Source: a virus. Taken from it: DNA of 39,860 bases. The position numbers were made by a program, and so were the translations under genes. Location of the stretch: positions 1-39,860 of the IMG/VR virus record IMGVR_UViG_3300047470_000522; one strand, written 5' to 3'. Below, piece after piece: positions 2,761 through 7,693 of this stretch. Within the stretch, counting starts at the first letter, position 1. Every line of letters starts with the position of its first letter. The notes beneath the pieces are model-generated. The model was not told the DNA's origin, ran no database searches, and was given only the letters and a program-made list of their open reading frames with translations.

Positions 2761-3215
2761 GCTCGTTCTCCTTCGCGCGCTCGCAGCTCAGCTATCTCGG
2801 CTTCCATCGCGCGCTCGACGTCGGTCGGCGCGTGCAACGGGAAGTCCGAGGGCAGGCCAAGGCGCTCGCGCCAGGTCCTGACCGGCGGCGCCGGTGCGCG
2901 GCCGTTCGCCGCCAGGTCGTCGTCGACCTCGGTCGGGCCCAGGTAAAAAGTCCCTTCGCCCGGGTATTCCGTGAAGTAGGCGTACAGGCCAAGGTCCAGG
3001 TGTGGCCATGCGTCCGGGCGCTGGATGATCGAGACCTCGGCGTCGTGGCCGCCGAACACCCCGACCAGCGCTTCCGCCTGGCGCAGGGTGAACTCGACGC
3101 TGGACACATCGCCGTGTTTTACTTGCCGAGTGGTGCCGGCCGGGGGCGTGTCGTCCCATTCGATAGGTGCGCCCGGGTGCCGGTCGTCGCGGCGCCTCTG
3201 CTTGTTATCGTTCAT
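2757..3215 (-). CDS. Hypothetical early phage protein
   Basis: A 152-residue acidic protein with no recognised domain. The N-terminus is polar and probably disordered (MNDNKQRRRDDRHPG), the middle looks like a beta-rich fold (VEFTLRQAEALVGVFGG, AEVSIIQRP), and the C-terminus is a charged helix (DVERAMEAEIAELRAREGERA). The frame is open further upstream, but the ATG at 3215 overlaps the stop of the ThiF gene as ATGA and is the natural start. It is the first gene after the PRTRC set and is presumably co-transcribed with it. No function is proposed. Confidence 0.7.
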   Translation of the reverse strand: MNDNKQRRRDDRHPGAPIEWDDTPPAGTTRQVKHGDVSSVEFTLRQAEALVGVFGGHDAEVSIIQRPDAWPHLDLGLYAYFTEYPGEGTFYLGPTEVDDDLAANGRAPAPPVRTWRERLGLPSDFPLHAPTDVERAMEAEIAELRAREGERA

Positions 3216-4006
3216 GCAATTCCTTCCAGTTCCAGTTTGAGGTCGCTGGGCGCCGGCGGCGCCGGTACCGGCTCGCGCACGTTCAGCGGCCGCATGCTGC
3301 CGGTGCGCAGGTTCACGAAGGCGCCGTGCCAGGTGAGCCGGCCGTGGCGGAAGAACTCCCACAGGATCGACAGCGCCGGCGTCACGATCGACTGGTTCAC
3401 GAACAGTTCCTGGCGCTCGAGCGCCTCGGCCAGGCCGCAGCTCGGCGTGTCGTCCTCCTTCGCCTTCAGGTCGACCAGCTCCGGCAGCACGTCGTACGGG
3501 CTCGGCAGCAGCACGCTGTTCGCCGGCGCCGCCAAGCCGGCGCGCCCTTCGAACAGTTCGCCGAGCAGCACCTGGCCATCGGCCGCACGGTTTCCGAGGT
3601 CCATCAGGTAGTGCACGCCTTGGCGCTTCAGCCGGTGGTGGATCTCATGCCGGGCGCGCGCGCTGTCAACGCAGGCGATCGCCATGCCGAACATGCGCTG
3701 GTCGTCATCGAAACGACCATGCACAGCCGTCCAGTTCAGACCGAAAAAAGCATTGATCCGCTGGACAAGCACATGCGCCTTGCTGGCGCCGACGTCGAAG
3801 GCGCCGAACAGCTGGCGGCCCATGTTCGCCTCGCTCACCGTGTCGGGGTCGTAGACCTTCACCTGCAGGCCCGGGTGGCCCAGCGCCGTAATGGCGTGGT
3901 TCAGCCTGGCCAGCCCGGTCAGCATTTGCGAGCCGTTGCCGCCGCAGCCGATCAAGGCGATGCGCACCGGATGGCTCAGCATGGTGGGTGGAGTGATGTG
4001 CGGCAT
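3212..4006 (-). CDS. PRTRC system ThiF family protein (E1-like activating enzyme)
   Basis: A 264-residue E1/ThiF/MoeB-type adenylating enzyme. It shows the nucleotide-binding loop LIGCGGNGS (residues 19-26), then VYDPDTVSEANMGRQ (51-65) with Asp53, Asp55, Asn61, Arg64 and Gln65, the ATP-binding signature of this superfamily. Asp114 (ACVDS) is a further conserved acidic position, and Cys190 (DTPSCG) is the candidate thioester cysteine. The family would adenylate the C-terminus of a ubiquitin-like protein. It is the last of six contiguous PRTRC genes, 4 bp after protein A. In known PRTRC cassettes this gene gives the T in the name. Substrate and target are unknown. Confidence 0.9.
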   Translation of the reverse strand: MPHITPPTMLSHPVRIALIGCGGNGSQMLTGLARLNHAITALGHPGLQVKVYDPDTVSEANMGRQLFGAFDVGASKAHVLVQRINAFFGLNWTAVHGRFDDDQRMFGMAIACVDSARARHEIHHRLKRQGVHYLMDLGNRAADGQVLLGELFEGRAGLAAPANSVLLPSPYDVLPELVDLKAKEDDTPSCGLAEALERQELFVNQSIVTPALSILWEFFRHGRLTWHGAFVNLRTGSMRPLNVREPVPAPPAPSDLKLELEGIA

Positions 4007-4010
4007 TCGA

Positions 4011-4784
4011 TCACCCGAAGATCTTCTCGGCCGGGACGTTGATCGGGATGTACAGCCCGAGCACGCACAGGCGGAACGCCACCGTCGGCTTGTCCGTGTC
4101 CAGGTTGCCGAACACGGCCGAGATCTTCACCGCGCCGCGGTCGTCCTCGTCATCGGTGGTGCTGAAGAAGGCTGCATGGTGGCCGTGGCTGTGCAGGTCG
4201 ATCGCGAGGCTCTCGTCGAACCCGGGCTCGACCTGGCGGTATTGGATCCTGCTGGCGCTGGCCTCGCCGATGACGTCCGGATACTCGATCCGCCACTTCT
4301 TCTGGCGGTGGTCCCACAGCAGGCTGGCGGCGGCCTCGACCGGCGCGTCCGCCTTCGCTTTCGCGGCGAATTCCTTCAGCTGCGGCAGCGCACTGCCGAT
4401 CGATGCGAAGTCCAGTTCGCATTTGTCCTGGATGGCGCCGTAGGGCATCGCGACCGTCTCCTGCTTGGCCAGCTGGCGGACGTAATGGAGCCACGGCCGG
4501 CGCACCTCGAGGAACAGGCCGCCCTGGGCCAGCAGGAAGCGGTGACCAGGATCCTGCAGCGGATGGAACGGCACGTGGCGCGGAACGGCTGCGACCGGGG
4601 CCGCGCCCAGCAGCGCCAGGTCCATCTGCAGCAGTTCGGGCGGCGCGGCTTCCTCATCGATGGCCAGCGGCAGCGGGCGGGCCTCGCGCAGCGCGGCGGC
4701 TGTGGTGTTGAGGAAGGACTCGAACGAACCGCGGGTGATATCGAGCAATTCGTCGAACTTTTCGGTGATCTCTTGCTTGAGCAT
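4011..4784 (-). CDS. PRTRC system protein A, JAMM/Mov34-type metalloprotease
   Basis: A 257-residue protein with a C-terminal JAB/JAMM domain. The zinc motif H-x-H-x7-S-x2-D is exact: His198, His200, Ser208, Asp211. Glu150 in PVEAAASLLWD, 48 residues earlier, fits the catalytic glutamate. JAMM enzymes cleave isopeptide or peptide bonds after ubiquitin-like proteins, so this protein is expected to mature or remove the PRTRC C protein. The N-terminal 140 residues are specific to PRTRC A and contain the LLAQGGLFLEVRRPWLHY stretch. The gene lies between the E2-like B and the E1-like ThiF genes. Confidence 0.9.
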   Translation of the reverse strand: MLKQEITEKFDELLDITRGSFESFLNTTAAALREARPLPLAIDEEAAPPELLQMDLALLGAAPVAAVPRHVPFHPLQDPGHRFLLAQGGLFLEVRRPWLHYVRQLAKQETVAMPYGAIQDKCELDFASIGSALPQLKEFAAKAKADAPVEAAASLLWDHRQKKWRIEYPDVIGEASASRIQYRQVEPGFDESLAIDLHSHGHHAAFFSTTDDEDDRGAVKISAVFGNLDTDKPTVAFRLCVLGLYIPINVPAEKIFG

Positions 4785-6593: not shown

Positions 6594-6994
6594 GGCAGCA
6601 CCAGGTGATTCGAGGACGGCGCCAGGCAGCGCACGCCGTCGGCCTTGCGGGCCTGGTCGAGGACACGCTTCACCTGCTGGGCCAGCGGCTGGCGCGCCTG
6701 CTCCGCGGTCAGCACGTTCAGCGGGCGCGCTCCCGCATCGAGGCGCCCGCCGCTCCGCAGGCGCTGCAGCGCGAGCTCGACCGCCTTGTTGGCGCCCTTG
6801 GTGCCGACGGCGCGCCGGAACGTGTAGATCGCCTTGGCGCCGACCTGCTGCGGGCCTTCGATATCGGCGCTGAGGATTTCAGGGTAGACGCTGGCGTAGA
6901 AGTCGCGCACCTGCTCCAGGCTGAGCAGCGCGCCCGGGTCGGCCAGCGCCACGCCGTTGTAGCGGAATTCCCGGATGAGGTTCTGGATGTCCAT
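6590..6994 (-). CDS. PRTRC system protein C, ubiquitin-like modifier with long C-terminal extension
   Basis: A 134-residue protein. Residues 1-67 match the short PRTRC C family (Prok_Ub type): REFRYNGVALADP, then EQVRDFYASVYPEILSADIEGP, then IYTFRRAVGTKG, ending in a glycine-containing tail as expected for a conjugated modifier. Residues 68-134 are extra; family members I remember stop near Gly67. The extension (LALQRLRSGGRLDAGARPL, then an alpha-helical region) would hide the GTKG end until cut, for which the JAMM protein A is the natural candidate. The start ATG at 6994 has GGAGG 6 bp upstream. Confidence 0.86.
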   Translation of the reverse strand: MDIQNLIREFRYNGVALADPGALLSLEQVRDFYASVYPEILSADIEGPQQVGAKAIYTFRRAVGTKGANKAVELALQRLRSGGRLDAGARPLNVLTAEQARQPLAQQVKRVLDQARKADGVRCLAPSSNHLVLP

Positions 6995-7006
6995 GTCGGC
7001 CTCCGC

Positions 7007-7693
7007 TTAGAACAGGTCCAGGGTGAACTTGTCGACCGGATCTTCGGTGACAACCGGCTCGGGTGCGCCTTCGTGGCCGGCGTCCGCTGCGGCGTCACCT
7101 GCGCCCTCGACGACATCCTGCGCGCCAACTGCGCCCGCATCGGCGGCCGGCTGCGAACCCTGTTCCGTCGCCGCCTCCGTGTTGGTGCTGGCGCCTGATT
7201 CACCGGCGCTGGCCGGCAGCTGCTCACCCGCATCCGTGCTGGTGCTGGCCGCCATCACCTGGTCAGCGGCCGCCGCGGCTTCGCCAGCTGCAGCGGCTGC
7301 TGCCGGCACCGCATCCTCTACTTTCTTTTCGTCCTCGCTGCTCTTGCCAGCGCGCGGCTTGCGGGTGGTCTTCTCAACCTTACTGTCGCCCTTGGCCTCG
7401 GCCTTCGGCGCCGGCAGTGCTGGCGTCGAGGTGGTGGCCGCGCCGCCGGTGGCGTCCTGGGCCTGCTGGATCAGCGAGCGCTTCGGCGCCTGCCAGGTCG
7501 ACAGCGCGGCGACGAAGTCAGCATCGAACTCGACCGGCGTGGCCAGCAGCGACAACGGTTGCGGCAGGTTGGATTTCGCCTTCGGGTCGAATGGCATCGG
7601 CGTCACGTTGACGCGCAGCTGGCCGTCGCCCTCGGCGGCGACCGTGATCATCAGCGTCGCCCTTTTCGCGAGCTCATGCAGGGTTGTGAACAT
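7007..7693 (-). CDS. PRTRC system protein E with disordered tail and TLDLF end
   Basis: A 228-residue protein. The first 80 residues match PRTRC protein E (MFTTLHELAKRATLMITVAAEGDGQ, then PLSLLATPVEFDADFVAAL). Residues 95-215 are a low-complexity Ala/Glu/Asp/Ser/Thr-rich tail with a short basic patch (TTRKPRAGK), surely disordered. The protein ends in DKFTLDLF, whose last five residues resemble the QLDLF-type sliding-clamp-binding peptide. The start ATG at 7693 has GAGGA upstream. It is the first PRTRC gene to be transcribed, 12 bp ahead of protein C. Confidence 0.86.
   Translation of the reverse strand: MFTTLHELAKRATLMITVAAEGDGQLRVNVTPMPFDPKAKSNLPQPLSLLATPVEFDADFVAALSTWQAPKRSLIQQAQDATGGAATTSTPALPAPKAEAKGDSKVEKTTRKPRAGKSSEDEKKVEDAVPAAAAAAGEAAAAADQVMAASTSTDAGEQLPASAGESGASTNTEAATEQGSQPAADAGAVGAQDVVEGAGDAAADAGHEGAPEPVVTEDPVDKFTLDLF

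Follow-up and report, generated by a model that had tools for sequence, protein, structure and literature searches.

The window analysed here is the entire IMG/VR record IMGVR_UViG_3300047470_000522 (39,860 bases), and its minus strand carries, at 3212-7693, six adjoining open reading frames (ORFs) that encode a PRTRC cassette in the order E, C, F, B, A, ThiF. Its gene content marks the record as a phage and includes integrase, repressor, DnaB, terminase, portal, capsid, tape measure and tail fibre genes. We propose that the cassette represents a phage-borne, ParB-less lineage of the class 6d/PRTRC conjugation module and forms exchangeable early-lytic cargo that may tag a host protein during takeover; we assign this reading a probability of roughly 0.45. 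Conjugation itself is predicted from the sequences, and modification of a host protein is our best guess for its purpose. The cassette is made up as follows.

7007-7693, minus strand: PRTRC E, with a conserved N-terminal domain, a low-complexity linker and the C-terminal tip TLDLF (TIGR03741, E=1.4e-17, above cut-off)
6794-6994, minus strand: C residues 1-67, ubiquitin-like domain ending in AVGTKG (TIGR03738, E=2.4e-27; Prok_Ub, E=3e-23)
6590-6793, minus strand: C2, residues 68-134 of the fused C protein (profile homology to stand-alone C2 ORFs)
5538-6593, minus strand: PRTRC F, mainly helical (TIGR03742, E=6.5e-27)
4801-5541, minus strand: PRTRC B, E2-like, with Cys164 and downstream His193 (TIGR03737, E=4.5e-57; Prok-E2_D, E=4.6e-37)
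4011-4784, minus strand: PRTRC A, DUF2016 plus JAMM peptidase, with Glu150, His198, His200, Ser208 and Asp211 (TIGR03735, E=2.3e-60; Prok-JAB, E=2.5e-13)
3212-4006, minus strand: PRTRC ThiF, E1-like adenylating enzyme, with GxGGxG, Asp114 and Cys190 in a PSC motif (TIGR03736, E=8.7e-94)

Identification of the PRTRC cassette

All six proteins exceeded the curated NCBIfam cut-offs when analyzed by hmmscan (score in bits, cut-off in parentheses): PRTRC_E 63.6 (38), C 94.8 (46), F 94.4 (58), B 193 (131), A 203.5 (102) and ThiF 313 (145). The Pfam matches, Prok_Ub, Prok-E2_D, DUF2016 with Prok-JAB, and ThiF, were concordant. A profile search of B against PDB sequences gave a single match, which was irrelevant. 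An initial annotation made from the DNA letters had named the same six genes in this order, at these coordinates and in a phage, and the profile searches bear it out on each count. It was also right that ParB and D are missing: neither PRTRC model matched the window record, and the D model does match plasmid records. Five of the six cassette proteins had no PHROG family match.

The suggestion that the system would be new did not hold, because the operon type was described in 2006 as class 6d by Iyer, Burroughs and Aravind (PMC1779556), and PRTRC families have curated models and occur widely on plasmids (311 records). The passages on class 6d in that paper describe a ubiquitin-like protein with a terminal glycine, a helical protein, an E2 with a downstream His, a JAB peptidase with an extra N-terminal domain, and an E1; the N-terminal alpha+beta domain has a conserved Arg and Trp. 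Each of these was found here: a Prok_Ub protein with the AVGTKG glycine, an E2 with Cys164 and His193, DUF2016 plus Prok-JAB with invariant R96 and W98, a ThiF E1, and an F protein whose AlphaFold2 model is mostly helical (predicted local distance difference test score, pLDDT, 71; predicted template modelling score 0.71). The same passages name bacterial genomes and mobile elements, whereas phage, the E protein and C2 do not appear in them (PMC1779556). What appears to be new is the phage lineage, its place in an early operon under predicted repressor control, the exchangeability of the cargo and the C2 partner. The papers and abstracts examined, with most subscription papers and all preprints out of reach, contained no report on PRTRC function or a phage cassette, nor on the phage lineage, its regulation or C2.

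Conservation of the catalytic residues

The residues were compared across 79-81 phage and about 70 plasmid or chromosomal loci, truncated or damaged copies excepted. Glu150, His198, His200, Ser208 and Asp211 of PRTRC A were invariant. In B, Cys164 was kept in 81/81 phage and 74/74 plasmid or chromosomal loci; His193 was also invariant, although it falls within one search pattern, so that its conservation partly reflects hit selection, whereas Cys164 and all the A and ThiF residues lie outside the patterns. ThiF showed an invariant GxGGxG, Asp53, Asp55, Arg64, Lys76, Asp114 and, in a PSC motif, Cys190, which we infer to be the E1 thioester cysteine. The initial annotation had correctly picked out Cys164, the JAMM residues His198, His200, Ser208 and Asp211, and the intact ATP site of the E1-like enzyme; His193, Glu150 and Cys190 are added here. 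The sequences show intact enzymes whose catalytic residues are conserved.

These intact frames, with active sites invariant in about 80 diverged phage loci, make it very unlikely that the cassette is a chance passenger or a decayed, functionless remnant, which its patchy occurrence among sister phages might otherwise suggest. They also bear on the reading that C carries sulfur or acts as a partner without covalent attachment, with no protein conjugation. ThiF-like enzymes usually activate sulfur carriers, and YukD is a precedent, in the part of the 2006 paper that concerns it, for a ubiquitin-like protein that need not conjugate (PMC1779556). However, the cassettes retain a JAMM peptidase and an E2-like protein whose Cys and His are invariant, and no metabolic genes are linked to them. 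Both points favour protein transfer, and we regard this reading as quite improbable.

The modifier end and the C2 component

The C protein of the window has 134 residues, the ubiquitin-like residues 1-67 being followed by the fused C2 at 68-134. The initial description of C as a ubiquitin-like protein thus stands for residues 1-67 and fails for 68-134, where the fused second protein had been overlooked. AVGTKG was present in 70/70 other phage C proteins, followed by nothing (4 phages), by 1-3 residues (7), or by 60-100 residues of differing kinds. The long tails are of three kinds: a helical ..HVCPLLDEE..FI.AL..RY, a ..WL...FI..L...LH..HC, and C2. On the tree the tail type switched about 10 times with AVGTKG constant, and fusions of C2, all joined at one residue, occur in four separate clades; in divergent phages, further kinds of tail are attached at the same point. 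Plasmid C proteins end in GAKG, usually with 3-13 residues after it. Given a fixed end and freely changing tails, the most economical interpretation is that mature C would end at GTKG and that the JAMM peptidase would trim the remainder. Two precedents support such processing: the CBASS (cyclic oligonucleotide-based antiphage signalling system) JAMM protein Cap3 cleaves a linear fusion at the modifier C terminus (PMC10097602), and the 2006 paper, in its passages on class 6, predicted that JAB peptidases process the ubiquitin-like proteins of that class (PMC1779556).

C2 lies between C and F in 70/71 phage cassettes (locus L015 counted from a separate comparison, L047 unclear), either as a separate ORF of 60-78 residues, as in most relatives, or fused to C. 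The Burkholderia-type, Massilia-type and fused forms are mutually homologous by profile comparison (probability 91-99%), and most end in VLP or LLP. The median ratio of nonsynonymous to synonymous substitution rates was 0.42-0.55, which indicates a coding, fast-evolving sequence. Plasmid cassettes have a small ORF at the same C/F position, MRK..L.KAL...PLPDVDLPMIF; homology with phage C2 was not supported (profile probability 1.8%), and we claim a likeness of position and general shape only. Neither is covered by any NCBIfam or Pfam model. The plasmid ORF (6751-6966 in locus L019, with equivalents in other plasmid loci) is unlisted and overlaps the annotated F start in pMOL28, where F has probably been called too far upstream.

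The cassette as exchangeable cargo

The cassette occupies a slot whose surroundings could be compared with those of sister phages. The neighbouring features are as follows.

8139-8330, minus strand: small ORF at the left edge of the cargo slot (75-84% DNA identity in cassette-less sister phages)
7733-8125, minus strand: winged-helix regulator between the slot edge and E (Pfam helix-turn-helix matches; in few relatives, L004 and L094)
1-1278, minus strand: integrase, the other edge of the slot region and the operon end (phrog_1, E=9e-21)

Sister phages share the flanking ORF (75-84% DNA identity), and one of them also shares integrase DNA (83%), yet they are without the 4.5-kb cassette. The slot is almost empty in L175 and L219, and in L184, L185, L186 and L191 it holds a C5 cytosine methyltransferase (L184-L186 by family search, L191 by similarity), accompanied in L184 and L191 by an Rv2179c-like exoribonuclease. 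Since sister phages lack the cassette or carry other genes in its place, the genome comparison identifies it as cargo that the phages can do without or exchange. This speaks against a part in virion assembly. The terminases were also diverse: two families cover 35/50 records tested, so the cassette is not bound to one packaging type. Virion proteins, which the initial annotation had offered as a possible target, are unsupported, as close sister phages do without the cassette and its carriers have different terminases.

Predicted repressor control

Beyond the slot, the DNA around the repressor gene shows a symmetrical arrangement.

9163-9984, minus strand: repressor, LexA/S24-like sequence, between two operators; homologues likewise placed in relatives
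8737-8778, minus strand: left promoter-operator, pL/OL-like, TTGACT-18-TTTAAT, directed to the cassette; inverted copy of 9935-9976
9935-9976, plus strand: right promoter-operator, pR/OR-like, TTGACA-18-TTTAAT, before the rightward genes; paired with 8737-8778
8794-8812, minus strand: terminator-like hairpin that separates the left promoter from the repressor gene

The two 42-nt elements match in inverted orientation at 33/42 positions, a level reached by 0/120 composition-preserving block shuffles. A similar operator pair surrounds the same interval in 25/69 relatives (>99th percentile of shuffles), with operator sequences that differ between phages. The lambda OL and OR operators have the same layout, on either side of the repressor. 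By this likeness, the cassette looks repressor-controlled and early lytic, and it is predicted to be off in the lysogen. With such timing, off in the lysogen and on at infection or induction, the likeliest role would be to tag and disable a host protein.

The main rival, to which we give a clearly smaller though still appreciable chance, is competitor exclusion, in which the cassette would tag a protein of another phage, superinfecting or co-infecting, and so protect the lysogen or the infecting phage. Bil (bacterial ISG15-like) systems act on virion proteins in this way. The combination of E1, E2, ubiquitin-like protein and JAMM peptidase is the logic of bacterial anti-phage conjugation systems, and the cassette is accessory cargo of temperate phages. 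However, the matching operators put the operon under the prophage repressor and so would silence it in an established lysogen, which weighs against the lysogen-defence form. In addition, the cassette had no match in the defence library, save for weak ThiF matches to generic E1-E2 models.

A phage lineage distinct from plasmid cassettes

A B profile search of IMG/VR returned 70 contigs, mostly of 35-50 kb, and a ThiF profile found 250 relatives, the best 80 of the 250 adding about a dozen contigs. Besides the window, 70 IMG/VR records carry the ordered cassette; the order E, C, (C2), F, B, A, ThiF was found in nearly all phage contigs, so its parts stay together. The carriers form a family of temperate phages of Massilia and Burkholderia relatives. 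One annotated phage genome was a full match, the sewage isolate Burkholderia phage BgVeeders33, in which the cassette genes are annotated as hypothetical except for one 'dinucleotide-utilizing enzyme'; a tail sheath is annotated as well. The phage-type cassette was also found in bacterial genomes of Massilia, Paraburkholderia, Burkholderia and Cupriavidus and in one Rudaea bin. In a tree of A, B and ThiF, 79 phage loci and 68 plasmid or chromosomal loci fell on opposite sides of a split with support 1.0; nine genome loci (L091-L099) had been placed on the phage side by similarity and absence of ParB.

A model search for PRTRC ParB in 18 records and a phmmer search of 71 phage loci were both negative, against about 60 positive plasmid or chromosomal loci; ParB stands directly upstream of E in both annotated plasmids with the full set. 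The D model matched 0/50 phage records and did match the plasmid-record positive control. A general rule that every phage-borne set is without ParB was ruled out, as the divergent IMG/VR contigs L318 and L319 carry it; the ParB-less rule is limited to this phage clade. In L318 and L319, B, ThiF and ParB occur together, and these contigs may be phage-plasmids or misclassified plasmids.

In summary, the phage set resembles the plasmid PRTRC cassettes (TIGR03734-TIGR03742; e.g., Cupriavidus metallidurans pMOL28) in the E-C-F-B-A-ThiF order, the families, the catalytic residues and the small C/F ORF. In contrast, ParB immediately precedes the plasmid sets, D is often encoded at another site of the replicon, and C has GAKG and 3-13 residues as a rule; these sets form a separate clade. 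The phage set, with A, B, C, E, F and ThiF present in order, has neither ParB nor D, its C proteins have long tails or are fused to C2, and it sits among predicted early genes of a phage.

The linkage to ParB raises the alternative that the module acts on DNA-handling proteins in replication, recombination or maintenance, as the plasmid versions may. ParB adjoins the plasmid cassettes and D is encoded at another site of the same replicon, the slot is the counterpart of the left operon, where lambda has its recombination genes, and E has a short hydrophobic tip (e.g., TLDLF) behind a low-complexity linker. Nevertheless, the phage clade is without ParB and D, and close relatives manage without the cassette; we consider a DNA role unlikely.

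Proposed mechanism and relation to known systems

The conserved enzymes, the defined modifier end, the exchangeable cargo and the predicted early expression together favour tagging of a host protein early in infection. In the proposed mechanism, the operon would be off in the lysogen and switched on right after infection or induction. JAMM peptidase A would cut C after GTKG, here freeing C2; ThiF would adenylate the exposed glycine and hold C on Cys190; and the E2-like B would receive C on Cys164 and pass it to the target. A may also remove the tag, and C2, E and F could be target-recruiting or regulatory partners. The tag would disable a host protein, whether one that serves defence or some other factor of the cell. 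At the same rough probability given at the outset, the cassette would be an early-infection weapon in which a self-processed C-C2 precursor, E1, E2 and JAMM covalently tag a host protein, disabling defence or redirecting the cell. The methyltransferase in the slot of sister phages would then do the same kind of job.

Several observations weigh against this proposal. The AlphaFold2 model of B (12 sequences) reached a mean pLDDT of 43, too poor for a check of the E2 fold. The F model had no known-fold match (none significant by Foldseek; best VIA-align Z 3.4, a value uninformative on the fold). Some free C proteins already end in Gly or Gly-Ala, so processing is not required in every phage. Repressor control is deduced from DNA symmetry, and a consensus promoter scan, whose rule requires A at position 2 of the -10 box, gave no promoter. 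The ParB-adjacent plasmid versions hint at a role in plasmid biology, not counter-defence.

Like the phage cassette, a Bil operon combines an E1, an E2, a ubiquitin-like protein and a JAMM peptidase. It differs in that the Bil E1 has two adenylation domains, one inactive and one active, together with a Cys domain (PMC11354881), whereas ThiF here is a single 264-residue protein matched end to end by PRTRC_ThiF, and in that Bil is a host defence and this cassette is carried by a phage; we do not class the cassette as Bil. Type II CBASS Cap2/Cap3 shares the E1/E2/JAMM chemistry, but Cap2 is an E1-E2 fusion and the modifier a cGAS-like enzyme, whereas E1 and E2 are separate genes here and the modifier is a true ubiquitin-like protein, so the cassette is not of the CBASS type either. 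Lambda tail assembly TAPI/TAPK, in the part of the 2006 paper that treats it, likewise pairs a phage-borne ubiquitin-like protein with a JAB peptidase, but has no E1 or E2 and belongs to the late tail genes (PMC1779556).

Up to now, ubiquitin-like conjugation in bacteria has been investigated as a defence of the host against phages (Bil, CBASS). If the proposal is true, this phage lineage puts the chemistry on the attacker's side, as a virus-directed ubiquitin-like modification in bacteria and the mirror image of Bil and CBASS. The uncharacterised PRTRC family gains its first testable handles, namely the point at which C is predicted to be cleaved, an additional, seventh component and an expected timing of expression, and the isolated phage BgVeeders33, together with the natural precursor cut site, provides material for a direct test.

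Additional observations

Other relatives were also noted. The human-gut phage scaffold MT839883.1 (L321) has relatives of ThiF, B and C, and its C ends exactly in IGTKG. Acidobacterial bins (L167-L170; Terriglobia, Angelobacter) have relatives of E, C, B and ThiF without ParB, and their C ends exactly in GYKG or GHKG.

The E tails, with a low-complexity linker and a short hydrophobic tip, are docking-tail-like: TLDLF in Massilia-type phages, GVDLL or GVDLY in Burkholderia-type phages, and TDLASLL in plasmids. We do not claim TLDLF as a sliding-clamp motif, because the canonical leading Gln is missing and other phages end in GVDLL or GVDLY. A small protein at window positions 1481-2128, adjoining the integrase, has a DnaJ-like segment (Pfam E=0.005, under the cut-off; phrog_9210) and recurs in several relatives.

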